A stretch of DNA of 64,000 nucleotides, from assembly GCA_027604685.1 (NCBI GenBank), contig JADHYX010000065.1:1-64000 (forward strand), given 5' to 3'. Below, one piece after another: positions 33,216-63,000 of this stretch. This stretch comes from Lobulomyces angularis. Lineage: Eukaryota; Chytridiomycota; Chytridiomycetes; Lobulomycetales; Lobulomycetaceae. Position numbers and translations under genes: made by a program. Position 1 is the stretch's first letter; each line of letters begins with the position of its first letter. The notes under the pieces are model-generated. The model did no database searches. It saw only the letters and a list, made by a program, of their open reading frames with translations, and was not told the origin of the DNA.

Positions 33216-34007
33216 ATGAAAAATCAATCACTTTCTTTAATTTCTCGAACATGTTTTGGTAAGAAAAAAAAATAAAAATAAGTATATAAATAAATAAAAT
33301 AAAAGAAAAAAAACCTAAAAAGTGGAAAAAAAAAATTAATTTATTTGTTTCAAACTAAAAAAAAAAAATAAAAAAAAAAAAAAGCTGTTACTTCATCTAT
33401 AAATGCATTCAAAGATCCAACAAAAGCTGATCAAGTTGCCATATTAGGTGAAGTTACTGGTCCATATTTCTTAAACAAAATTAGAGAAAAAATGTTGCTT
33501 GACAGAACAGGAAGAAAAATTTTGAGAGAAAAACCTATAATATCAAGCTCAACTTTGAATCTTGACATGTTAAATCAGTATGAAGAAAATACTTTTGGAA
33601 AAGAGTACGCCAAAATGTTAAAAACCTTAAATATTTCCCCTGATACCAGAAGCCAAGTTCAGTTTATTGAAGATAAAGAACTGGCTTATATAATGACAAG
33701 ATATCGTCAGGTGCATGATTTTTGGCATTTATTGACAGGTTTAGGAGTATCAGTGGAAGACGAATTATTGCTAAAGTGGTTGGAGTTTACACACATGGGC
33801 TTACCAGTAGCAGCTATATCTAGTATCTTTGGTCCATTTAGGTTGAATGATGCATCCAAATTTTGGGAGGTTGGAGTTCCTTGGGCAATCAGTTGTGCTA
33901 ACAATTCGAAATATTTAATGAATGTTTATTACGAAGAACTGCTTGCCAAAGATATTGATTTAGTTAGACAAGAGCTTAATTTTATACCTTATCCCAAAAA
34001 AATTTAA
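33216..34007 (+). CDS. COQ4: Ubiquinone biosynthesis protein COQ4
   Basis: Two exons, 33216-33258 (MKNQSLSLISRTCF) and 33385-34007. The short first exon gives a presequence-like N-terminus. The body has NAFKDPTKADQVAILGEVTG, LREKPIISSSTLNLDML, then the metal-binding HDxxH motif in YRQVHDFWHLLTGLGVSVED with the following Glu in KWLEFTHMGLPVAAIS, and FGPFRLNDASKFWE. This is the complete COQ4 family pattern at the usual length (about 220 residues). COQ4 works in the matrix-side coenzyme Q complex and in oxidative decarboxylation of the ring. The first-exon start lies 18 bases from an assembly gap, so a longer 5' end cannot be excluded. Confidence 0.93.
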
Positions 34008-34762: not shown

Positions 34763-35555
34763 ATGTCGAATAAAACCTTTTTTGATCTACGTAACGTCAG
34801 CTGTTCCAGCTGCAAACAGCGCGTTTCGCCGTGTGTCGATGAACTGGAGCAGTCGATGACCAATCACTTTTCACCGCACTTGCATGCTCACTACAGCGAC
34901 TCCTTCAAATCTTGCTTCTGCGAAACTTCAGAGCAACGTAGGGTCTTTAGCAAATGCATTACTGACTATAAAGTAAATGTTCCTTCTTCTTCATCGTCAA
35001 GTTGTAAGGTCTTCCACAATTTTCCTTCCGCATACCAGCTTCCAACTCTTTGTGAATCTAATCCAATCCCCAAAGAATTTTTTTTAGACTATTGTAATAA
35101 AAAAATATAATTTTTATTTTATTTTATTATTAATTTTTAGATAATCAATATTACCAAAAAAATTCAATCAACACAATACAGACACATTCTGAATTTCAAT
35201 TTTGGCCTCTAATATTTTTACTTTTAAGTTTAACCACATTTATTATGATAGCTTTATTTATAAGAAAAAAATGTGTTGAGGGTGATGCATTAGAAGATTT
35301 TAACACTAATATTCCTCTAGAAGATAGAAATTTATATCATTATCATCAAGAATTTGGTGATGAACAATTGCCAAAGGTGAAAAAAAAAAGTTCTTTTTCT
35401 TTCAACTTTGAGTTCCAAATTAAATATTTATTTTTTTATTTTAATTTTTTCTTTTTAAAACTTTCTGTTAGTATGAAGGAAGGGAAATTATAACTTTACC
35501 GGATAAAAGTTATAAGATAGGTAATGAAGTGGAAAGTAACGAAATAAAAACATAA
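34763..35555 (+). CDS. Cys-rich single-pass membrane protein, family member A
   Basis: Three exons. Exon 1 (to about 35088) encodes MSNKTFFDLRNVSCSSCKQR and a hydrophilic ectodomain with cysteines in CSSCKQRVSPC, SCFCE, KCITDY, SSCKVF and LCESNPIPKEFF. Exon 2 (from 35143, phase 1) gives a membrane segment (FWPLIFLLLSLTTFIMIALF) followed by RKK and the conserved DRNLYHYHQEFGDEQLPK. Exon 3 (phase 0) adds YEGREIITLPDKSYKIG and a short tail ending at TAA 35553-35555. No signal peptide is visible; the basic residues after the helix and the N-terminal sequon predict an outside N-terminus. It is the most diverged of the five paralogues and its GC content in exon 1 is notably higher. Function unknown. 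Confidence 0.78.
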
Positions 35556-36167
35556 CTCGGATCCCTTTTTTTTTATTTCTCTTTTAACAATAGTAATTAT
35601 TTTCTTTATAATATTTATAATTTTTTTTTTATTTACGTTATGAGATAAATATTGAAAAGTTGGACAATAGGATTGATTATATTGAACACATTTATAAAGC
35701 TTCCTATCAGAAAGGTTCATGCAAACCAAAATGAAAATTCAGAAAAATGTTGCTATTTGAGTACCTTGTAGATTTTAATAATCTACAGTAATTATGATAC
35801 TAGAATAATCTCAAAGATAAACCAATTACAATTAAACCATTAAAAAAAACCAATAGATCCAAGTTATTAAAAAAAATAAAAAAAACCTTAAAAATTGACC
35901 AGCGTTACTGGAATTTTTCAAATATAGTTCAATTTGAGGTCTCTAAATCTAACCTGTATAAATCAAAAATACTCTTGTCTATTTTGTTTTATGCCACTAT
36001 GCATAGATTCGTCGGGGTTCTGATTTGGATTGATTTGTGTAAGCTATACATTTCCCCTAAGTTTACCTCTAAAAAATTTTATATAATAAATTGCTAAAAT
36101 TTAAAAGTGTAAATAAAACTAGAGAAATTAAAAAAGAATAAGAAAAAAAAAATCCCTATTTATTTTT

Positions 36168-36524
36168 TTATTTTGCACCTTCAAAAGGAGTCAAACAAAC
36201 GGTTTCTAAAGTGTGAATGTTTGTTCTAAGTAGTTTTAAATTTTCATCTCCATCTTTATCCTAATAATATATGATATATTTTGAGGAAGATGGAGACCAT
36301 GCATATCCAAACGTGGGAAGGTTAAAAAAAATAAAAGTGGAACATAATTACATAAAAGTGGAACATAATTACCTGATGTCATGAGTTAGATGAGTTAAGA
36401 CCACTTTACGGCATTCATTTAAACCTTGAAGATTTAGCGGCAATGGTTGAATTTCAACTTGAAGATTACTGTTTTTATTAGGCCAAGTGCTAAAAGGCAA
36501 TATATTAACCATCATGAAAATTTT
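36168..36524 (-). pseudogene. Coding remnant of an unrecognised protein
   Basis: On the minus strand one block reads VNILPFSTWPNKNSNLQVEI and PLPLNLQGLNECRKVVLTHL up to a GT donor near 36372. A second reads GDENLKLLRTNIHTLETVCL and ends TPFEGAK with TAA at 36168-36170. Both look like real protein. The only plausible splice joins them out of frame and hits a stop, so I class it as decayed or frameshifted. No family was recognised. Confidence 0.35.
36332..36373. repeat. 21-bp direct repeat, two copies
   Basis: The unit ATAAAAGTGGAACATAATTAC occurs twice head to tail. It falls in the intron-like part of the coding remnant and may have arisen by slippage. Confidence 0.85.
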
Positions 36525-36926
36525 GGAGCCTTATGAGCAGCATCAGTGAAGAATTCAACGTTATTAACAGTAGAAATGATCTTTATTAAACAATAGAATT
36601 TTGTTGTGGCAAAGTGGAGGCTGGTTCTCAGCACACAGAAAACAATGGTTGAAAAAAGTCCTATTTTTTTTTTGTAGGTTGTAAGTTTTATTTCAAAAAC
36701 TCTTCTTTTTATTTAATCTGTTACTTCGGCATATTTTTTTATACTTTTTTTATACTTTTTCTTTTGTGCTAGTCAATCTATTTTTTAAGATATTCAGCAC
36801 AACCCTGCCCCAATCCATTAGGGTTTTCCTAAAAGTAAAAGATTTTTGCTTTGAAAAATTAAAAAAATGTAAATTATAAAATTTCAACATAGAATATAAA
36901 CTTTTTGATAAAAAAAAGAAAATAAA

Positions 36927-37984
36927 ATGAATTCCTCTTCCTCAAACGAAACCGTAGTTGATTATTTTGGTGGTACTAAATTAAAATGTGACACCTGTTA
37001 CGTTAAATGTTCAAATGAGTTTGAAGATTTGATTTACCTCGATCCCTTACCATTCAACAAGTTAAAGATGTCATTTTCAAATTGTTTTTGTAAAAATATA
37101 GATGAATTATTTGAAACTTATAATTTGACTATGTGTAACACTTATCCTGCTTCTTCAGTTGAAATTTGTAAAACAAGTTACCATGGATTTACCAGTCCCG
37201 GTGACGGTATAAGCAGCAGAGTTTGCAAATTAAATCGGATTCCTGAAGAATTTTTTTCTCAATATCGTAATTATAAAAGAAACACCTTTTTATTCTTTTT
37301 TAATTTTGGTTTTTTTATTTTTTTTATTTTTGGTTAGGTGCTAAACTTGTTGCTGACGATGTTGAAGATTATCCCCCCCAGTCTTTTATTCCACAAGAAA
37401 AAGAAAGAAAAGATTTGGGATCTGTACCATATGTGGTACTTACCATATTTTCTTTGTTGGCGGCTTTTTTAATTATGTTGAAATTGGAGAAAAATAGAAA
37501 AAGGACAAATCAAGTTTTTAATCCTTCATTACCTTCAGATGTTGTCATCCCTTTGAATGAAAGAAGTTTATACTATTATCAAGAGGAGTTTGGTGATGAA
37601 CAGTTACCTAAGGTAAGAAAAATCCTTTCATTCTATTTTATTTTATTTTATTTTTTTTTTATATATATTCATATAAAAATAAAAAAATGAAATTATATCA
37701 ATTTAATACACTAAATTTTTATTATTTTTTTATTTTTGTAGTATTGCAGTGATTTGGAATTTCAACCGTCTAACGAAGACATTCCTTTACAAGTTCTAAA
37801 TTCTGACGTTATTAATACAACAACAACAGCAGGACTACCAACGTTTGAAGAATCTCAAGTTTCTACAGGACAAAGCATTGACCAGGGTGAAACTTTGAAT
37901 GAATTACCGCAGAATGAGAATATCGGTAATGTAACTGCGGATTCTATTATTCTAGTACCGTTATCGTCAAATGAGCAACTTTAA
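36927..37984 (+). CDS. Cys-rich single-pass membrane protein, family member B
   Basis: Three exons with the family's structure. Exon 1: MNSSSSNETVVDYFGGTKLK, then CDTCYVKC, SNCFCKN, TMCNTYPASSVEICKT and VCKLNRIPEEFF. Exon 2 (phase 1, from about 37338): ectodomain stalk, membrane segment (VPYVVLTIFSLLAAFLIML), basic stop-transfer residues (KLEKNRKRTNQ), then NERSLYYYQEEFGDEQLPK. Exon 3 (phase 0, from 37742): YCSDLEFQPSNEDIPLQVLN and an acidic, Thr/Gln-rich tail (TFEESQVSTGQSIDQGETLN). Sequons near the N-terminus and positive charges after the helix suggest N-out, C-in without a cleaved signal. Intact. Its 3' half is almost identical to pseudogene D. Confidence 0.82.
37560..37960 (+). repeat. 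Inverted-repeat arm shared with 40810-41245
   Basis: From about the RTNQV codons of exon 2, through all of intron 2, to near the end of exon 3, gene B and pseudogene D are nearly identical at the DNA level, intron included, and lie in opposite orientation about 2.9 kb apart. Upstream of this tract the two genes differ strongly. The second arm is at about 40810-41245 on the minus strand. Confidence 0.8.
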
Positions 37985-38668
37985 TACCAATCAACCTTAA
38001 GTTGTGTAAATGAACTATTTTTTTTTTTACCATAAAAAACATTTAATTATATAAAAAAATTGCAGAGCAAAAAATGTTTTTTTTTTTTTTTCATTGAGTG
38101 ATTTTAAAAAATTGTTTTTACTATTGTTCTTTATTTTGTAATTTTTTTCTTTTTTTTTTTTTGTTTTCTTAGATCATTTACATACATTAGATATTGTTAG
38201 TTTATTGTGCATGATTTTATAATATATATAGACGCTATTTTTATTTTTATTTTTTTTGTTTTTTTTTGTTACAAGTTGATTTGAAAAAGTTGTTTGGATA
38301 GTCTATTATTTAGTTTTAAAACATGATTAAGTTTTTTAAATTATGGTGCTTTTTAATATTTTAATATATTATAAGCAACTTATTTGTTTTTTTAAATTCA
38401 AAAGTAAAAAAGTTCTGTGTCTGTTTATTTTTATCAACTCCCTTATTTTATTTTATATTTTTTTCACAATGCATGAAAACTTTAGTTGAATAATAATATG
38501 TTTAAAAAAATACATTATTGTTAAGTAAATGAGCTATAAAAAAAAAAAAATGCAGTAAACCAGTAACTCCAATCAATTGAAAAAGAGCATCTGTACTTTT
38601 CAACTTTATTTAATCACTTATAGTTTTTTCAAAAACTTAAAAACTTACGCACTTTTTTGATATTAATC
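37985..38668. other. Convergent spacer between family genes B and C
   Basis: 680 bases rich in T tracts between two convergent stops. No further family copy or other feature was found. Confidence 0.4.
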
Positions 38669-39759
38669 CTAAGGTTGATCAGAATTGGCGATTTGCTCGT
38701 ATGATGTTAAGGGTATGGAAACACTAGTTTCGTTTCTTTCTGTAATTTCTGAATCAACATTCTGTTGTGTTTCTATTGAAATTTCACCTCGCTCAACGTT
38801 TAGTTCTGTGGAAAGTTGAGACTCTTCAAAGGTCGGTAGTGGAGGAATGGTGGTAGTAGTATTACTGCTTGAATGTAGAGGTTGTAAAGATATGTTTTCA
38901 TTAAATGGTTGATAATCAAAATCACTTGCATCTTTTGTATACTACAAAAAATAAAAATTTGTTAAAAACAGTTAATTAATTTAAATTGTATATAGATAAA
39001 AAATAAAATTATTTATCAATTTATTTAATTCAAAAAAAAAAAAAAATTACAAACAAAAGTAATAAATGTTTACCTTAGGTAACTGTTCATCACCAAACTC
39101 TTCTTGATAATAGTATAAACTTCTTTCATTCAAAGGAATGACAACATTTGAAGGTATTGTGGGATTAATATTTGGAGGTGGTCGCATTAATACAGCGTTA
39201 AACTTCCACCTAACAAGAACAGCCAACAGTAAAGCGAATATAAATAAGAATAGAAAAGGTCTATAATCAAAATTTTTTTTTTGTTCTTCTGGCATGTAGG
39301 GCTCCGTTAAACTTTCGTTAGTTGCAAGTTTAATTCCTAGAAAATTACAAAAAAAAAGACATTAAACTCTGTTTTAAAAAATTAATTTTTTCCTTAAGTT
39401 ATTTTTATTTTATATTTTTTTAAATTTAATTTACGATAATGCACAAAAAATTCATCAGGAATTGGAGTTAAAGTGCAAGATTCATAATGCAATTCTACAT
39501 CAGGAATGGGATATCCTTCAAGGTTTTTTATACAGTTATCTGTCGATGTAACATACTGTTTACCACAGACAGTTGAATTTCCCAAAATCACATTCAACAT
39601 GTCTCGACAAAAACAGTCCTTAAATGAGCTTCGTAAATTATTGAAAGGTAACGGGTTTTTTTTAATCAAATCAGAAAAACCTGATGAGCAATTAGCATAA
39701 CAGGTACTGCAAATTAATTTCTTATTTACAAAATTATCCAAAAAGTTAGTAGAATTCAT
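38669..39759 (-). CDS. Cys-rich single-pass membrane protein, family member C
   Basis: Three exons. Exon 1 starts MNSTNFLDNFVNKKLICS (39759, chosen to match B, D and E), with CSTCYANC, DCFCRD, VCGKQYVTSTDNC and SCTLTPIPDEFF. An in-frame ATG at 39840 would add a 27-residue basic and hydrophobic leader. Exon 2: GIKLATNESL, membrane segment (PFLFLFIFALLLAVLV), RWKF, then NERSLYYYQEEFGDEQLPK. Exon 3: YTKDASDFDYQPFNENISLQ and an acidic Thr-rich tail ending at TAG 38669-38671. The frame is intact across all exons. Transcribed towards gene B. Confidence 0.82.
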
Positions 39760-40790
39760 AAATTTTTCATTAAAATTTTTTTTTTTCAAAGCTAAGTAAT
39801 TGAAAAGAATTGGAATTTTACCGTGCCCAATTACTCTCATATGACATCAGGAACTAGTTTTTATGTAGTATTATAAATCAGTTTATATACTCAACCTCCC
39901 CGGTCATGAATTCTTGGTTCCATGGAGTTTTTCTCTTGATCCTTTCAATCATGGGAATCGAAACTTCAACATTCACTTTTAGTAACTTTTTTTAAATTCA
40001 ATGCTTCTTAAACATTCATCATAAATTTTTATAACATAAATGTATAAAGTAAAAGTAAAATAAACATTTATTAATTCAATACCAACAAAATAGATTTTGA
40101 CTAACACTTTAGTTGTTGTAAAAAAATTGGGAATGTTCAAAAATGATTCTTGTGCATTTAGTATCAACATCAATTTCTATTTAATTTTAATAAAAACCAT
40201 TGTTTTCCAGCTGGGAAGTAATTTTGGAGTACCACTCCAAAATATTGACTTTGGTTTACTTTAAACTGTTTTAGAAGTTGAATTAGAATCCAATACAAAA
40301 GAGTACGTGGTCACAAATTATATGGTGCATCTTAGTATGATCTGTATCGTACATTGCAAATTAAATTTGGAAGGACGTTGCATCAAAATAAAAAATAAAC
40401 TATTTTTTTAGGAGTTTTATAGTTTCATTATATATGAAATATCAACAGTTTTTAGTTGCCTGCCTAGTATTCAAAAGCTGTTTTTTTTTTTTTTAATAGA
40501 CCTTCTTTTATCTCAACTTGCCTTTTTTCTTAGTGCTTGGCCAAAATGTTTTCTTACAATAATTTTTTTTTTTTTTTTGAAGAAATTTTATTTCACAATT
40601 TACCTAAAACTTTTATATTTCTATTTTTTCTATTTTTTTTATAAAATTTAAAAAAAAAAAAAAAAAAAAGTGAATTTAATTATATTTTCAAAAATTAATG
40701 CATTTTTTTTTTTTTAAAGTAAAATTTCTTTACATAATTGTTATTAACTTATGGAGAGTAAATATGAAATTATTAAACCTTTTCTTTTAT
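39760..40790. other. Intergenic region between family genes C and D
   Basis: 1 kb. A 29-codon plus-strand frame at 39906-39995 starts MNSWFHGVFLLILSIMG, which looks like a signal peptide but has no continuation I could find. A perfect hairpin lies at 40221-40243. The rest is AT-rich. Confidence 0.4.
40221..40243. other. Perfect inverted repeat, 10-bp arms, 3-nt loop
   Basis: ATTTTGGAGT and ACTCCAAAAT flank ACC. The arms contain G and C, so this is not the trivial A/T palindrome common here. It could be a terminator-like, cruciform or protein-binding site; nothing in the sequence decides. Confidence 0.6.
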
Positions 40791-41896
40791 TCATCCTGAG
40801 ATTGATTGGTATTGACAGGTTGCTGGTACTAGAATATTAGAATCCGAAATTACATTACCGATATTCTCATTCTGCTGTAATTCATTCAAAGTTTCACCCT
40901 GGTCAATGCTTTGTCCTGTAGAAACTTGAGATTCTTCAAACGTTGGTAGTCCTGCTGTTGTTGTTGTATTAATAACGTCAGAATTTAGAACTTGTAAAGG
41001 AATGTTTTCGTTAGAAGGTTGAAATTCCAAATCATTGCAATACTACAAAAATAAAAAAAATAATAAAAATTTAATATATTAAATTGATATAACTTCATTT
41101 TTTTTATTTTAATATGAATATATATAAAAAAAAAATAAAATAAAATAAAATAGAATGAAAGGATTTTTCTTACCTTAGGTAACTGTTCATCACCAAACTC
41201 CTCTTGATAATAGTATAAACTTCTTTCATTCAAAGGGATGACAACATTTGAAGGTAATGAAGGATTAGAAACTTGATTTGTCCTTTTTCTATTTTCCACT
41301 ACTTTTCTGGTAATGAAAACAGCCAAAAATATAGCTAAAATGAAAAGTACTATATAATCCAAAGGTGGTTTTATTTTTTCTGTATAAGCTGGAGAATCTG
41401 GAGGATCTGAAGAGGGAAAGGAATCGAAGTAAATTTTATTAGATAAAAGTTTAGCACCTACCAAAGTAAAAAAAATAAAAAATAAAAAATAAAGAATAAA
41501 AAATAAAAAAATAATAAAAATTTTTAAATTTTTTCATTTTAATATTTTTTATAATACGATATTTAAGAAAAACTTCGTCAGGAATTGGATTTAAATCACA
41601 GAGGTCGTGAAGTATAAACCATTCGGGTGAGGGAAATCCATAGTAAGTTGTTTTACAAATTTCAACTGATGAAGCAGGATAAGTGTTACACATTGTCAAA
41701 TTTTAAGTATCAATAACTCAGCTACATCTTTACAGAAACAGTTTGAAAATAACTTATTCAACTTCTTGAACGGTAAGGGACTGAGGTAAATTGCATCTTG
41801 AAACTCTGTGGAACAATTAACGAAGCAGGTATCACATATTAATCTACTATCACCAAAATAGTCAACTATGGTTTCGTTTGAGGAAGTGGAATTCAT
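40791..41896 (-). pseudogene. Cys-rich membrane protein, family member D, frameshifted
   Basis: It has the three-exon structure of the family and begins MNSTSSNETIVDYFGDSRLI with CDTCFVNC and SNCFCKD. Exon 1 is broken: compared with gene B one T is missing at about 41711-41716, so the frame runs into TGA at 41696-41698; the correct frame resumes at MCNTYPASSVEICKTTYYGF. Exon 2 (membrane segment IVLFILAIFLAVFI, then RKVVENRKRTNQ and the LYYYQEEFGDEQLPK motif) and most of exon 3 are open. The final residues differ from B because of further small indels near 40800-40835. The missing T lies in a short T run, so a sequencing error is possible. Confidence 0.7.
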
Positions 41897-42620
41897 TTTA
41901 TTTCCTATTCAATAAATTTAATTTTTTTTTTTTCATTTTTTTTATTTTTTCAAAGCAAAAAAAAAATATTTTCTTGAAAAGTTTTTAAGCACTTGAATAC
42001 AATGAAAAAACAGTGAAAATACCGTACAATGCAATACAATGAACCGCAAAGGGTTACAGAGGATTATTACAGCGAACTGCAGATGAGAAATAAATGAAAT
42101 ATATTCCCAATTGACTTTCACTCACCGCCTAGTGTTTTTCCAAGTTTATTTTTAACAAATTTCTTCAGCTTTTGTAAAACCTTTATAATCTTGCAATTTG
42201 TTTTGGCACAAATTTTTAATTGAATTTTATTTTTCTATTTTATTTCTATTCTTTTTTATTTTATTTTATTTTATTTCCTTTTTATTTTATTTTTTTTCAT
42301 TGTTTGATTTTTGAAAATTTAAAAAACTCAAAATTTTATTTTCGCAGTAATCTAAATTTTCTATATTTCTAAATCTTTTTTTTTTTTAATGAAATCTTTT
42401 TAACTAAAAATAAAATAAAAATAAAAATAAATAAATCAGTTATTTTTCATTTTGTTTTTATTTAAAATTACTTTGGTGAAAAAAAAAAAAATATGTTGTT
42501 ACCTTTTTTTTTTTGAAACATCATTTATCCACAGAACTTGATTTTATTTCATGAAGAGTAGAGATTTAAAATAATTTCATCTCCTTTTTTTTATTTAGTT
42601 TTTTTACCAAAAATACAAAT
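41897..42620. other. Intergenic region between family genes D and E
   Basis: 720 bases. 42000-42200 is mixed; 42230-42310 is a T-rich block of TTTTA-type repeats. No gene was seen. It should hold the promoter of D and the 3' end of E. Confidence 0.4.
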
Positions 42621-43590
42621 TTAAATTGAATTGACAGTTTGCTCGTTCGTTGTTGTAGGTATTGAAATGGTAGTTTCCGCGTTTTCTATACTTTCTGTAT
42701 TACCACTCTGTTGTATTTCATTCAAAGTTTCACCTTGTTCAATGTTTTGTCCTGTTGAAACTTGAGACTCTTCAAAAGTTGGTGGTCCAGCCACAGTAGT
42801 AGTATTAGTTGTAGTGTCAGAATTAAGCACTTGTAAAGAAATATCTTCCCTAGAAGGCTCATAATTAAAGTCACTAGCATCTTTTGTATACTAATAAAAA
42901 AAAGAAAAAAAGGGTGATAATAAAAAATAATAAAAGAGTTTTTTACCTTGGGTAACTGCTCATCACCAAATTCCTCTTGGTAATAATACAGACTTCTTTC
43001 ATTCAAAGGAATGGCATTGTTTGAAGGTACCGCGGTGGTATTAAAATTTTGCTCTGTCGTTGTGTCCTCACTCCATTTTTTTTTGACAATAGCAAGTACG
43101 AAGAAAGTAAATAAAAATGGTATTATAAATGGTCTAGGGTCAAGATTATTTTCTACAATTGCTACTTCAGGTGTTTTGTTGGACGTTAATTTCCTTTCTA
43201 AACAAAAAATAAAAAAATATTTTTTTTTTTTTTATAAAAAGAGAAAAAAAAAAAAAAAGAACATTCATTACCATATAAAGAAATGATTTCTGGAGGAATT
43301 GGATTCAAAGCACAAATCTGCGGAAGAATTTGTTTATCTGGGATGGGAAGTCCACCATAATTTGATATACAAATTTCGGTCGAAGGATCATATGATTCAT
43401 AGCAGCGAGCGTTAGATACATCATTACAAAAACAACCTAAAAATATGTTACTTAACTTCTCTATAGTATAAATTTTAAGGAAGGTATAAAATTCTTTTGA
43501 ACAAAGCTTTTCATGACAACTACTGCAAAGTAATTTGCTACTTTCGAAGTATTCGTAGAGGGTATCATTACTGTTTGAGGTAGAATTCAT
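42621..43590 (-). CDS. Cys-rich single-pass membrane protein, family member E
   Basis: Three exons. Exon 1: MNSTSNSNDTLYEYFESSKL with CSSCHEKLC, GCFCND, RCYESYDPSTEIC and ICALNPIPPEII. Exon 2 (phase 1): stalk, membrane segment (PFIIPFLFTFFVLAIV), KKKW, then NERSLYYYQEEFGDEQLPK. Exon 3 (phase 0): YTKDASDFNYEPSREDISLQ and a tail with TFEESQVSTGQNIEQGETLN, stop at 42621-42623. The frame is intact. Its tail is close to those of B and D, its exon 3 start is close to C, and its ectodomain is distinct. The start was chosen by alignment; an ATG five codons upstream is also in frame. Confidence 0.82.
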
Positions 43591-44663
43591 TTTTATAATT
43601 ATCAAAAAAAAAAATAGAATTTTAATTTCAAAGCAAATATTTTTTCTAATAAAAACCCCAAATAAAAAAACTGCACCCCTTTTTCTTCAGAAGGGTAATA
43701 GTTTATAAATATAGAAACTGTCAAATCAAGTCTAAATTATTGTCTTTTTCAATTAACATAAACAATTTGAATCAAGTTTGTTTTCAGTTTTTTTATAAGT
43801 AAATAGTTTGTAAAATAGATGATATGATCCAAAACACTTAAGTAATATGAATTAGAATTCACCTTAGACAATTATCCATAATTTACAGTTAGAAGGTTAG
43901 CTCAGCTTTTAAAACTAAGTAGATTTGACTAATTCAATAGTCAGGAAAACCGAAAATCGTGAAAGTTTGGAAATTATTCAATTAGTTTATGATCATAAAA
44001 CAAACAATAAGTTTTTTTTCAATTACAAGAAAAAAAAAAAATTGATATTATAATATAAAGGCAATTTGCACTTTTATTTCTTACTATTTAACACTTTATT
44101 TCAGCCAGAAAATAGTGTTTCAATCAAAACTACATTTTTCATACTTACCGTTTACTAAACTTGTGGTGATAATAGGTATTTGCATTTTGTTTAACTGTTT
44201 TATTTGTTTTTTATTTTTTATTTTATTTTCTATTATGCGTTTTTGATATGCTAAATAACATTTTTGACATTTACTAAAAATGGTTTTTTATAGTGTAAAT
44301 TTCTCAACAATTTATAGTACAACTAACAGAATTGATCATTAGGAAAAAAAAATAGAAAATTAAAAAATATTCCTGTATTTTCTTTTTTTTTTTTCTTGAT
44401 TTTTAAAAGCTAAATAATTCTAAAAACAGCTAGAAAAAAAAAAAAAAAAAAAAAATATTCCTGTATTTCCTTTTTTTTCTTTTTTTTTAAATAATTCTAA
44501 AACAGCTAGAAAAAAAAAAAATATAGCGAAGAACAATTTTGAGCAAATTTTTGTTTTTAAAAAAAACATTAAAAAAAAAAAAAAAGATTAAAAATTAATA
44601 AATAAATTTGGTAATATCCATTGATACTTTTGAAATTAGAGGTAAGACAATAAAAAAAAAATT
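43591..44663. other. Intergenic region with an imperfect tandem duplication
   Basis: 1.07 kb between gene E and the cyclin gene, both minus. 43640-44200 is mixed in composition and should hold the gene E promoter. 44368-44520 holds a duplicated block. No gene was seen. Confidence 0.4.
44368..44520. repeat. Imperfect tandem duplication, period about 88 bp
   Basis: TATTCCTGTATTT starts at 44368 and again at 44456. Each copy ends in a AAATAATTCTAAA...CAGCTAG block followed by poly-A. The second copy has lost about 20 bases in the middle. Confidence 0.75.
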
Positions 44664-46928
44664 CTACTCGCGTTTTAATGGAGCAAGCACAACATTGTAA
44701 GTAACGTCTAAAAAACCATTAAAAAAAAATATTTTAATAATAGTATTTATTACCTTCAGTAAATGACAGAGGGGTTTCAAGATTAGAGTCAACATTTAAA
44801 TTATTTCCAAAGTCAAAACTATTGGGTAAAGTACATTCATTACAGTTACTTTTGTCATCATCTTCTTCAGTAGGAGGGGTGGGTAAAAATCTCCTGTTTG
44901 TTTTAGAGGGAAGTGTTTTCGATTCCTCAATGTTACTAAAGGTTCGTTTTCTTTCTGGGCTTGGCAAAGAAGTAACACCAATAATATTTTTTCTTTGGAC
45001 TACACTATTTTTGTTTTTTTTGTTTGCTTTGAAATAATTTGGTATAGTCTTTTGAGTTTTGACAGAATTGTGAAGTTGTTGCATGCTCTTATGGTTGAGT
45101 TTTATACTTGAAGAGGATGCGGAATAAGCAGTGGCATCAAAAGTTGATATGGCATTCACATTACTATCCTCAATTTCAACTGAAATACCGTTTGTATCAC
45201 TTTCTCTTTCTAACCTAGCATCAATGACATTATACATTATTTCCATACTTTCTAGTACTAGGGAATACTCAGATTCTAAGCTGCTTCCACTGTTTAATTC
45301 ACAATTAATACGAATTTCTTCATCTATTAATTCTTCTAATTCTTCGACGGTAGCCTCTTTCATTTCCCTTGATGTCTCCAAGTAATTTTCAAAATCCAAA
45401 TAGTTTAGTTCATGTAGCTCCACTTCTAGAAGGTGACTTTCAAATAATTTAACACATCTATAAAAAGTTGAAACAGAAATTGTAATAATATTGTAATCTT
45501 CGTAACGAAACAAAGTAGACTTTTCATCATCGTATACAAATTCTGTATCTATGTCAGATTCATCGTCTGAGTCAGAAAATTCTGATTTTTGCGTCTCCTC
45601 AGAGTTTGGTAATGCAGGAGAATTTTTGACCTCCTCAATATCCACATCATCAATTTCATTTTGAAGATTACTTTGATAATTTTTTACAGCTAAATTATAA
45701 TCTTTAAAAAATTGGTGTTCATTTTTGAGTAATTCATCAACAACTTCATGCTCTGCCTTCAGATTTTTCAGCGCCAGTTTTAAAGCAACTTAAAACAAAT
45801 AAAGAGGTTATTATTGATAAAATTCATTTGATAGGCATTATATAAAAAGATTTTTTTTTTTTTTTTAGCTAATTTGAAAAAAAAAAAAATATCAATTTTA
45901 CCTGCAGCTTTAATATATGGCATAAATTCCAAAAAAAATGATTGACTTTCGAATATGTACAAATATTCCTCAATAAGTGGTTTTAAACGATTGAAGCTAC
46001 AGTTAGTTCGTGGACAACAAAACTTAATATCGGAATCGGTGTCTTCAGGATCATATTTGGAGTCCAGGTTAAGTTTTATACTGTGGGAACAATTTTCATT
46101 GTTAACTTCACTATTGAAAGTCAACATTGTTAAATAATGCTCTAAGAATGACATTGACGTGGACAACTTTAAATCCCATTTCAAATTTTCTAATACTACA
46201 AATTCCATATCCTAAACAAAAGAAAATCTTTAAAAAGTAGTTCTTTTAAAAGACTTACCTTAAGGTCGATTTCATCAAATGATGCTATACCAAAAGAATC
46301 ATCGCAATATTCTTTTAGCTGCGACAAAGCAGGACAGTTTACCTGGTGAAACTTCGCTGCTAACAAAAAACAAGTTGCTGAAAGTATCTGTAAAAATAAT
46401 ATAAAAAAATAATAAAAATTTTTTATAGATTATGGGAGGATAAACTTACATTGAAGTACGTTTCATCCAAGTCTAATTAAAAAAATAAAATAATTAATAA
46501 ATTTTTACAGGTATCGAAAAAAAAAAAAATTGTTTGCAAATTATTTTCGGATATTTGTAATCTATTTTATTTGATTGGTAAGGGAATGGTCAAAAAAATT
46601 AAATTTGATTCTTTTTAAAAGTCAAAGGATTTTGAGAGTAGTTCATAACAATAAAACCCTTAAAAAAAAAAAGTTCACCGTTACCCTCCTTCGACACAAA
46701 CCTATCAAAGTAGTTGCAACTTAAAAGATAGGTTTCCAAAGGGGAGTCGCTTAAAATTGCTAGTTCTCTAAGCCATACAACGTTAAATTTTCTTAGTAAG
46801 CTTAGCCTACTGTTTAGGTTAAACTTGTTGTAGTTAATAAAGTATTTTAAGCTGCTAAACTTTTGATTTTGATACAACCGTAACTTTTGATCAGAGGTCA
46901 AATCTTTAAAAAAAAACTCATTAATCAT
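44664..46928 (-). CDS. Cyclin (G1/S, D/E-like) with PIP-box and phosphodegron motifs
   Basis: About seven exons. The N-terminal cyclin fold reads FNVVWLRELAILSDSPLETY, LLSCNYFDRFVSKEGNLDET, then ATCFLLAAKFHQVNCPALSQ, LKEYCDDSFGIASFDEIDLK and DMEFVVLENLKWDLKLSTSM. That matches cyclin box helices 1-5 and the (M)E..VL..L.W.L..ST signature of D/E cyclins. A C-terminal cyclin half (ISVSTFYRCVKLFESHL) is interrupted by acidic inserts. The tail carries QKTIPNYF, a perfect PCNA-binding PIP-box pattern, LPSPERKR, a CDK-type site, and RFLPTPPTEEDDD, a Cdc4/Fbw7-type degron. Ends at TAG 44664-44666 after DVTYNVVLAPLKRE. It should activate a CDK in the nucleus. Cyclin class is uncertain because the C-half is divergent. 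Confidence 0.83.
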
Positions 46929-47384
46929 TGATTTGAAAAAAAATGGATTTTTTTTTTTTATCCAAAAAAAAAATTTTTGTGATTTTTTAGAGGAATCCTA
47001 ATACCCTCAGTAGTCCAAATGTTAACAGGCAAACAAATTTAATCAAGTTTCAATTACAACAGAATATAGCAGAAGCTACAAAGAATTGAAATTTAAGTTT
47101 TTGCAGTGAGCTTTTTTAAATAGAAAAGGATTTCTTGCTACAATGTAAACTTCCAAAAGTTGCACATCCAACATCTACTTATTTTTCCTTGTAAGAAATT
47201 TTTTATTTTATTTATAAGATGAATGCATATTAAAAAAAATTTAATACCTAAAAAAAAAAAAATGATAACTAAATTAGAAATTAAAATTAGTGAGAAAAAA
47301 AGAAAAATAAAGAGAGTAATTGAAAATAAAAATAAATAGTAAAAATAAAATTAAAATAATAGTATTAATTAACATAAAAAAAAT
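46929..47384. other. Intergenic region upstream of the cyclin gene
   Basis: 455 bases of AT-rich DNA between two minus-strand genes. 46990-47190 is mixed and probably the cyclin promoter. No gene was seen. Confidence 0.4.
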
Positions 47385-60061: not shown

Positions 60062-63000
60062 CTATTGTAAAGAACCCCATGTTGTTCCGCTTCTCATCTT
60101 TACTTTCAAAGGCACATTATACTCATGTACTGTCATAGTTTTATCTATTAATAACTTCATCTCTTCTAACAAGTTATTTGGAATTTCCTACAGGTTTTAA
60201 AAAAAAAAAAAATTAATCTAAGAAATTTAGCTTTTTTACTTACGAATATCAACTCATCATGAATTTGCAGGAGTAGATGTGGTATTAATTTAATACCTGG
60301 TTTAGATGATCCAAATCTTTTTTGAAATTCTTTGTAAATGGCTACCATAGATATCTTAACCAAATCTGCTGCAGAACCTTGAACTATGGTATCTTAAAAA
60401 ATAAATTAATTGCTTTTTACTTTTTTTTTTTTCTAATATAATATGCATACTCAAAGCTTGACGTTCCGCATGTGACCTATAATTTTGAAATAATTCATTC
60501 CCTTATAGCATTTAAATTATTTTACCTTTGAGGGAAAGATTGTGAATGAATAAGCGGTAAAAATCTCTTTCTCCCAGTTATTGTTTCTACATAACCTCTC
60601 TCACTGCATTTGCGAATAACTCTAAAAAATAATTACATTGACAGATAAATAGCAACATTTTCTATTAAGAATACTCTTTTTGAAATTTTGGTATGGCAGC
60701 AAATTTTTTTCTAAAATCTTGAATAAAATCCTCAGCCTCTCTAACGGAAAGATCAAGTTCCTTTAATGGTGGAAGAACGGAAAATGAAAAAAATAATTAT
60801 AGTTTTAAAATTTACTTCAGAAAGGGATTTTGCACCAACACCATATAACACAGCGTAGGTGACATTTTTAGTTCTTTTTCGAATCGACGTAGTAACCATT
60901 TCAATGGGTATGTTAAACCATTCGCTGGCAATAATCTTAAATGGATCTTCGCCAATTTCAAAACTCCTCAATAAAATTTTTTCTTGAGCCAAATACGCTA
61001 CAGAGGCAGAACAATTAGCCTTAAGCATACTTTAAAATCTCTTCCATACCAATCAAACGAAGCTCAATCTGACAATAATCCACACTTAATAAACAGCTTC
61101 CATTAGTAGCTTCGAAACATTCCCTAATATTAATTGTTTCGATGGTCAAGCTTTCATTCGATTGAGGTAAATGTTTAGGATGTGGTATATTTTGCAAATT
61201 TGGGTTCGAGGTTACAATTCTTCCTGTGGAGGTTTGGTAATCAAAGTTACAGTGAATGCGAGGCATTTCAACGTCATTATGATAACCATTTAAGCTTATT
61301 AACGGTAATAGATGATTACTCACAAGTGTGGAAATAGTTCTATGCTGCATCAATACGGTTATAATTGGATGCAAATTTTGAAGCTTCTCTAAAACTTCTT
61401 TGTTTGTTTTCCTCTTCAATTTCGAATTTGCTTTGCATACCAACGGATAAGGTAGCTGTAAATCATCAAACAATACTTGCGCTACTTGGACAGGGGAAGC
61501 CAACGAAAAAAATTTTCCAGCTAAAGTATGAGCTACATTTTCCAGATTTTCTAGCATCTATTCAAAGGGTTTAAATGAAATATACGTCACAAAAAAAATT
61601 TTTATTTTTTTTATCACCTTTGTGAAGAAATCCCAAAATGAAAGGAATTTTTGAAAATTTACCCCCAGCCCAACAAGTTCCATGCTAGCAAGAACTTGTA
61701 TTAATGGCATTTCCACCTCAAAAAAGTGTCTCAACAGAGATTTAGAGCGTAATTTTCCTTGTAAGTAGTGCATTAACTTTAATGTTTGAACATTTTCCCT
61801 ACAACATTTTTCAACATTGTTGCTTGGCATAGTATAGGTACTTTGAGGCAAAAAAATTTTCATCTTCATAAAAAATTTTAGATATTATTCCTGCGATTCT
61901 TTTACCATTTGCTGCAAAGACTTTTCCTGTTGATCTGGATTAATGCACTGTTTTATAAAAGGTTAAAAGCACAACCTTAGAATAATAAACCCATGCGGCA
62001 ACACAGGGATCTACTAAAGTAAAAGATACATGATCAAAGCCAGCATTAAATAGCAACTTAACCTAACATTATGTCGTCTACTAAATATTATTGAAAAATT
62101 AAGCATTTAAAACCTGAAACTTTGCATCAAAACAAATTTTTACAGATTCCTTTTTAAAAATGGAGGCAATCCTGTTAAAGTCAACTTTACTTAGATTTTG
62201 TACATCAAAATCTATAATGAAAAATTAGTGTTAATTTCAAACTATCAAATTTTTTACAATATACACAATTAGGAATCCAACATACTGAAAAACCTTCCAT
62301 TTTGATATTACCTGAAGAATTATCTTTGGTCCATGCAATGTTCCAGCAATATTCCTCTATCATTTCCCATTCCTTACAAATATCATCGAAAGCATTATTA
62401 CCAACTTTAACATATATTATTTGAAAATTATCTCCATAAGTAATAAGATTTTGGGCATTGGAAGAAGGGGTTTTAAGATATAGATTTTTCTTCTTTGCAT
62501 GCTCAACATTAGACTTGATTGCTTGTTGCGTTGTGGAGTTGCTCGTCCAATTTGCGTAACTCCCTGATTTGATTTTAGAAGCGGAAATAACCTTCCTTGC
62601 CGAATTTAATATGGCACTGTTAGGTTCCATTAAATTTTTGGCAGCTCTTTCCAACACCTTCCTATCAGACTCAAGAAGTTGTTTAGCCGAATTTACAATA
62701 GAACAGGCTGCTCGGAATTCAATTCTATTGGAGCTATCCACGTCCATTTGACTCCCTTTTGAACTTTTAAATGGATGATGCTTTTTTAAATGTTCAAAAA
62801 TCTTTATAAAAAAAATAGTTTGTTGAAAATGTTTGTAAATGAACTATATTTACCTCTTCTGGTGCTGCACAAGCTATGCTAGCAACACTGTGAAATCCAG
62901 CTTTCCATAAAATCCTTGCCCTAGTTCCTGAAAAAATAGCGAAGTAATTAATTCAATACATCTCAAATATTTACCTTTCACAAAAGGAATTCTGACTAAT

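Follow-up and report, generated by a model that had tools for sequence, protein, structure and literature searches.

Clustered cysteine-rich, putative membrane proteins with a shared tail block in the chytrid Lobulomyces angularis

What kind of proteins does a cluster of cysteine-rich orphan genes encode, and what keeps one part of them nearly constant? This question is raised by positions 34763-43590 of a contig (JADHYX010000065.1) of Lobulomyces angularis, an aquatic chytrid of the order Lobulomycetales, of which the first 64,000 nucleotides were analyzed (the window). This region carries five paralogous loci (g1 - g5), two on the forward and three on the reverse strand. They represent an orphan family whose architecture is of a known type and not a new mechanism; new are the constraint on a block in the protein tail, a conversion tract between g2 and g4, and the link of an LPxY motif in that block to WW-HECT ubiquitin ligases. 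Tentatively, the proteins may expose their N-terminus on the extracellular or luminal side (N-out) and combine diverging ectodomains with one shared docking tail for ubiquitin-dependent sorting, like the Commissureless or Shisa-like adaptors, without belonging to those families.

Gene structure and the cysteine-rich ectodomain

A sequence-only reading of this region had proposed five genes with one layout. Both outermost start codons (34763 and 43590) were recovered as proposed, together with four intact paralogues (g1, g2, g3, and g5), whereas g4 contains a one-base frameshift in exon 1, reflecting either a broken gene or an assembly error. Despite this frameshift, g4 has the same exon layout as the other copies, and its 3' part corresponds to HDU92_007530 (P0008), the NCBI model of which begins only downstream of the frameshift. 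Comparison with NCBI showed HDU92_007528 to be g2 letter for letter. The intron phases (1, then 0) are the same in all four intact gene models. In addition, all ten introns of the five loci start with GT and end with TAG, and their guanine plus cytosine (GC) content amounts to 4-17%, as opposed to 25-42% in the exons, which makes the gene models credible even without transcripts. With g2 as query, the other copies were retrieved at E values ranging from 6e-37 (g4 exon 3) to 1e-4 (g1).

Eight cysteines, as had been proposed, occur in the ectodomain of all four intact copies, and also in a sixth paralogue (P0011, HDU92_007802) that is located on a separate L. angularis contig at NCBI. Their spacing in these five proteins is C-x2-C-x(3-6)-C-x(22-26)-C-x-C-x(7-14)-C-x(10-15)-C-x(15-18)-C, and the motif proposed to end the ectodomain matched all five. 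In each intact protein, the CxxC and CxC units are fixed and C-x2-[NT]-x-IP-x-E closes the ectodomain. The eight cysteines fall within the first 112 residues, none is found at positions 113-135, and at most one beyond position 165 (4/4 intact copies); g1 has one additional cysteine at position 155.

The ectodomains themselves have diverged to 29-42% amino acid identity between intact copies. The ratio of nonsynonymous to synonymous substitution rates (dN/dS) is 0.32 for g2/g5, 0.45 for g2/g3, and 0.48 for g3/g5, and being below 1 gives no sign of diversifying selection over the whole exon; in comparisons with the g1 ectodomain, synonymous sites are saturated or nearly so. Between g2 and g4, the most divergent 50-nucleotide bin of exon 1 is found around cysteines 7 and 8 (positions 37200-37249; 54% identity, with neighbours at 86% and 74%). 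The first exon of g1 (34763-35093) has a GC content of 42%, compared with 31-34% in exon 1 of the other copies. AlphaFold2 models, with a predicted local distance difference test (pLDDT) score of 45.6 for the full length and 43.0 for the ectodomain, were too poor for fold comparison, and a Foldseek search with the low-confidence ectodomain model alone gave a best E value of 5.3.

Constraint and gene conversion in the tail

Behind the membrane helix, a block that is near-invariant across the copies ends exon 2. In the tail motif, g1 has LYHYHQEFGDEQLPK where LYYYQEEFGDEQLPK had been given. The block ends in LPKY, of which the tyrosine is the first codon of exon 3, so that the motif spans an intron (four intact models). 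LPKY occurs in all seven database proteins retrieved, representing g1 - g5 and the sixth paralogue. The tail as a whole is net acidic in the four intact copies, as proposed, and comprises 51 residues beyond position 165 in g1 versus 114-121 in the other three.

Selection holds this block. Indeed, when the final 19 codons of exon 2 are compared, g5 and each of g2, g3, and g4 are separated at a proportion of synonymous sites (pS) of 0.78-0.89 and at no nonsynonymous site (pN 0), i.e. no amino acid change accompanies a synonymous difference of 78-89%, with only about nine synonymous sites per pair. Similarly, g1 compared with the other copies has a pS of 0.58-0.89 and a pN of about 0.145. Among g2, g3, and g4, 56-57 of the 57 nucleotides are identical, and part of this tail identity looks like the outcome of gene conversion.

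The evidence for conversion comes from g2 and g4. Intron 2 is identical at 125 of 129 positions versus 49 of 71 for intron 1 (Fisher p 5e-8), and the tract as a whole at 437 of 450 positions versus 418 of 568 upstream (p 7e-28); the tract limits were picked after viewing the identity profile, so that these p values are descriptive and not tests. The boundary near position 37500 is sharp, with identity rising from 64% to 96% between adjacent 50-nucleotide bins. The simplest cause would be gene conversion between the inverted copies, spanning the tail exons and intron 2 and leaving out the ectodomain and the helix. For g2/g4, dN/dS amounts to 0.41 in one piece of exon 1 and to 0.91 in its 3' piece, to 1.31 in exon 2, and to 0.92 in exon 3; these values rest on few sites, and exon 2 lies partly inside the tract.

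Table 1. Coordinates of the paralogous loci, the ectodomain exon, the tail blocks, and the conversion tract in the window
Feature	Positions	Strand	Description
g1 (HDU92_007527)	34763..35555	+	exons 34763-35093, 35141-35376, 35472-35555; 216 amino acids; most divergent copy, short tail
g2 (HDU92_007528)	36927..37984	+	exons 36927-37266, 37338-37612, 37742-37984; 285 amino acids
g3	38669..39759	-	exons 39435-39759, 39074-39336, 38669-38941; 286 amino acids
g4	40791..41896	-	exons 41558-41896, 41174-41457, 40791-41042; one-base frameshift in exon 1 gives an in-frame TGA
g5	42621..43590	-	exons 43272-43590, 42947-43197, 42621-42890; 279 amino acids
Ectodomain exon of g2 (P0001)	36927..37265	+	eight cysteines; equivalent unit is exon 1 of each copy
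Tail block of g1	35305..35376	+	TNIPLEDRNLYHYHQEFGDEQLPK
Tail block of g2	37541..37612	+	VVIPLNERSLYYYQEEFGDEQLPK
Tail block of g3	39074..39145	-	
Tail block of g4	41174..41245	-	
Tail block of g5	42947..43018	-	
Conversion tract, g2 side	37500..37949	+	437/450 nucleotides identical to g4, intron 2 included
Conversion tract, g4 side	40835..41286	-	

Predicted topology, a candidate partner, and alternative explanations

The membrane features proposed from the sequence were largely borne out. Each of the four intact proteins has one best hydrophobic helix, with a 19-residue hydropathy of 1.67-2.58, and no hydrophobic N-terminus, since 19-residue segments that begin among the first 24 residues reach at most 0.64. 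The first ten residues of all five proteins examined include the start of an N-glycosylation sequon. Sequons are also present C-terminal to the helix in g2, g3, and g5, and for that reason they cannot decide the topology. The basic residues said to follow the helix are seen by eye directly adjacent to it (RKK, KLEKNRKR, VRWK, and KKK) but are weak as a 15-residue net charge, which is -1, +4, +1, and 0 after the helix and -1, 0, 0, and -1 before it (g1, g2, g3, and g5, respectively). A single pass with N-out and C-in orientation and without a signal peptide is modestly supported as the most economical reading; the proposed reverse anchor fits the lack of a hydrophobic N-terminus and the adjacent basic residues, the charge evidence being modest.

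A candidate partner for the tail block is encoded by the same genome. Each of two genes (at C98 and C39 of the genome) encodes three WW domains and, after these and on the same strand, a HECT domain. The HECT domains of these two Nedd4/Rsp5-like genes (L077 and L078) themselves end in LPQY and LPVY. In yeast, LPxY is described as a determinant of Rsp5 specificity and is noted at the carboxyl end of Rsp5 itself; of 38 proteins with this motif in a WW network, Rsp5 bound 24 (PMC1557994, excerpt). Sorting or endocytosis through a WW-HECT ligase is proposed because LPKY is kept in the family, because of this Rsp5 precedent and the two ligase genes, and because of the parallel with Commissureless and PRRG described below. 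According to the proposed mechanism, the N-terminal part of about 110 residues with its eight cysteines would cross the membrane as in type III (N-out) proteins, with no signal peptide being cleaved off, and be held by disulfides, the helix would halt translocation, and the C-terminus would remain cytosolic. The ectodomain may then bind an extracellular or luminal partner, different for each copy, while the near-invariant block IPLNERSLYYYQEEFGDEQLPKY would dock all copies to a common partner, for which a Nedd4/Rsp5-type WW-HECT ligase bound via LPxY is the likeliest candidate; in this way, the protein or the cargo attached to it would be sorted to endosomes and the vacuole. The location may be the cell surface or the endomembranes, and it is a guess that the proteins act as surface sensors or sorting adaptors.

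Several observations weigh against this proposal. Subtracting the 15-residue net charge before the helix from that after it yields only 0, +4, +1, and +1 for g1, g2, g3, and g5, respectively. Further, LPxY is common, occurring in about 7% of yeast proteins (PMC1557994, excerpt). In the Commissureless motif, quoted as GLPSYDEAL (PMC5578492, excerpt), the fourth residue behind the tyrosine is large and hydrophobic; by eye, this is so in only three of six copies (g2, g4, and P0011), the position being alanine in two copies and glutamate in g1. Finally, constraint extends over more of the block than LPxY, so that its main partner may differ; a partner additional to WW domains is likely.

Other topologies have to be weighed against the N-out orientation. 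Since CxxC and CxC units are common zinc ligands, the eight cysteines could bind zinc in the cytosol, with an N-in orientation and a luminal or extracellular C-terminal part. The lack of a signal peptide, the sequons after the helix in g2, g3, and g5, and the nearly equal net charge across the helix in g1, g3, and g5 would agree with this, but basic residues directly follow the helix in each intact copy, the tail is net acidic and nearly free of cysteines, and the early sequons and the even number of cysteines fit a luminal N-terminus, which makes the N-in orientation unlikely. It is less probable still that these are type I proteins with a signal peptide on an unannotated upstream exon. Only g5 has a long open upstream frame with a hydrophobic run, together with an acceptor-like site (TTATTAG) at -57. 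The number of open in-frame codons 5' of the ATG is 15, 5, 29, 4, and 32 for g1 - g5, respectively, i.e. the frames of g2 and g4 close after just 5 and 4 codons and no upstream extension is common to the copies. Moreover, the first methionine is aligned across the copies and is also the start of the NCBI proteins P0005, P0006, and P0010.

Regarding function, the proteins might instead be zoospore surface receptors or adhesins, the ectodomain binding a substrate or partner cell and the block recruiting a ubiquitin-unrelated signalling or cytoskeletal protein. Diverged ectodomains joined to a fixed tail block would fit a recognition set with one output; however, no lectin, adhesin, or kinase domain was found in Pfam, and the ectodomain dN/dS of g2, g3, and g5 (0.32-0.48) shows no trace of diversifying selection on the exon as a whole, so that this role is possible but rather unlikely. 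A decaying young family without important function, partly maintained by gene conversion, would account for the frameshift of g4 and for g2/g4 dN/dS values close to 1 in exons 2 and 3 and in the 3' piece of exon 1. Such decay is very improbable in view of the same ectodomain ratios and of the tail block, which is strictly constrained in g5 and strongly in g1 at high synonymous divergence. Sorting by N-out proteins through a shared docking tail is the explanation tentatively preferred here. Whatever the partner, the cluster shows that ectodomain and tail are able to evolve separately inside one gene, and the fixed tail of such a small, clustered orphan family offers a concrete handle on a cytosolic partner.

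Distribution and comparison with known families

Protein searches over 5.8 billion proteins, with an alignment of four family members, one ectodomain, and an alignment of five as queries, returned 7 matching proteins out of 4494 scored candidates, 1 out of 6, and 7 out of 1878, respectively, the ectodomain-only search being weak. In line with the proposed lineage restriction, protein matches in the databases searched came only from L. angularis and Clydaea vesicula; these searches rely on shared short words, so that relatives in other chytrids could escape them if they evolve fast. Translated searches of the own genome, in which only the best candidates were scored, gave no match outside this cluster, and at the DNA level g1 also matched short stretches of contigs C326 and C1 (68 and 63 nucleotides). 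P0011 was not found in the assembly searched here, its best match being g2 exon 1 at 55%. Collections of viral and prokaryote contigs contained 134 and 33 stretches, respectively, that fit a pattern, with no relative among them. No paper on the family was noticed in the open-licence literature, these organisms being named in only part of the queries.

The Clydaea proteins are no independent support, as they are too near-identical for another genus unless a record is mislabelled or mixed, which may be the case for one of the Clydaea and Lobulomyces records. P0007 differs from g2 by one substitution and a 33-residue gap, P0006 differs from g3 by three substitutions, and P0009 equals g5 over 172 residues. 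The first residues of P0009, which continues into g5 exon 2 sequence, are encoded by 40 nucleotides found once in the window (40337-40376, forward strand), with g5 on the opposite strand; this arrangement points either to an inverted g4-g5 block or to a difference between assemblies.

Around the cluster, Coq4 (PF05019, E 5e-78) is located directly upstream (33372-34007, forward strand), a weak Cyclin_N match below cut-off downstream (46599-46997, reverse strand), and an exon of a family A DNA polymerase (PF00476, E 4e-35) at 61021-61557 (reverse strand). Elements resembling TTTGCTTTGAAAA lie 24-70 nucleotides 5' of the starts of g2, g3, g4, and g5 (36845-36857, 39783-39795, 41947-41959, and 43625-43637, respectively) and are perhaps a duplication remnant. 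This element was dropped as evidence, with five occurrences in the window at up to one mismatch versus a chance mean of 2.96 and with 22 of 100 shuffles reaching five.

As proposed, no named domain was recognized; there was no credible Pfam match, and none of the four ectodomains matched any Pfam family at E values up to 10. A FeoB_associated match of P0011 (E 0.00047, below the curated cut-off) was discounted, as it covers only residues 140-164, the membrane helix; a DUF747 match of g2 (E 0.2) was discounted too. The CFEM domain (PF05730) of fungal surface proteins resembles the family in having eight cysteines and a central CxC. Pfam found it in none of the four ectodomains, and its consensus spacing, as given in an excerpt of PMC4530338, is met by none of five proteins, also in a relaxed, cysteine-only form. 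The same excerpt describes CFEM as absent from the Chytridiomycota species examined there; a profile search of the own genome found nothing, but no control genome carries CFEM above cut-off. The helical cysteine domain of the GDNF/GAS1 type (PF02351), considered only for a general likeness, was likewise absent from the four ectodomains by Pfam, the search of the own genome having no positive control as reference. The Shisa-like proteins (Shisa, WBP1, VOPP1, and TMEM92) share a cysteine-rich N-terminus, one helix, and a PY-type motif or proline-rich tail (PMC5578492 and PMC10531659, excerpts), and LPKY of the seven database proteins would be a PY-type motif on the predicted cytosolic side. Their C*C*CC*CC pattern, however, occurs in none of five proteins, there is no Pfam match, and one member is described with a putative signal sequence (PMC5578492, excerpt). 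The family has the tested cysteine patterns of neither CFEM nor the Shisa-like proteins and is to be regarded, from its sequence, as an unnamed orphan family. Among the PDB sequences, nothing better than E 0.045 was found, this match being too weak. It concerned the RIG-I C-terminal domain, a cytosolic RNA-binding domain.

Further parallels are architectural. TACI/BCMA-type animal receptors have a cysteine-rich N-out ectodomain without a signal peptide, as is presumed for the present family, with a different cysteine arrangement. Yeast Rcr1 and Rcr2 span the membrane once in N-out orientation, with basic residues behind the helix and a tail that carries PY motifs, but they are not known to have a cysteine-rich ectodomain, and no Pfam match to them was found in the family. 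Commissureless is a single-pass protein. Both Commissureless of Drosophila and the PRRG proteins are transmembrane proteins with a cytosolic LPxY as WW-domain ligand, and Comm1, PRRG1, and PRRG3 are without a signal sequence (PMC5578492, excerpt), which is matched here by a putative transmembrane protein without a signal peptide and with LPxY in a tail predicted to be cytosolic. The PRRG proteins differ by a Gla domain (PMC5578492, excerpt), none being found here by Pfam, and the tail block is otherwise unlike GLPSYDEAL of Commissureless, as compared with the quotation in that excerpt only. It is conceivable, if doubtful, that the family represents an independently evolved fungal counterpart of the animal cysteine-rich LPxY transmembrane sorting adaptors, in which conversion and selection would keep one docking block common to all copies while the ectodomains acquire different specificities.

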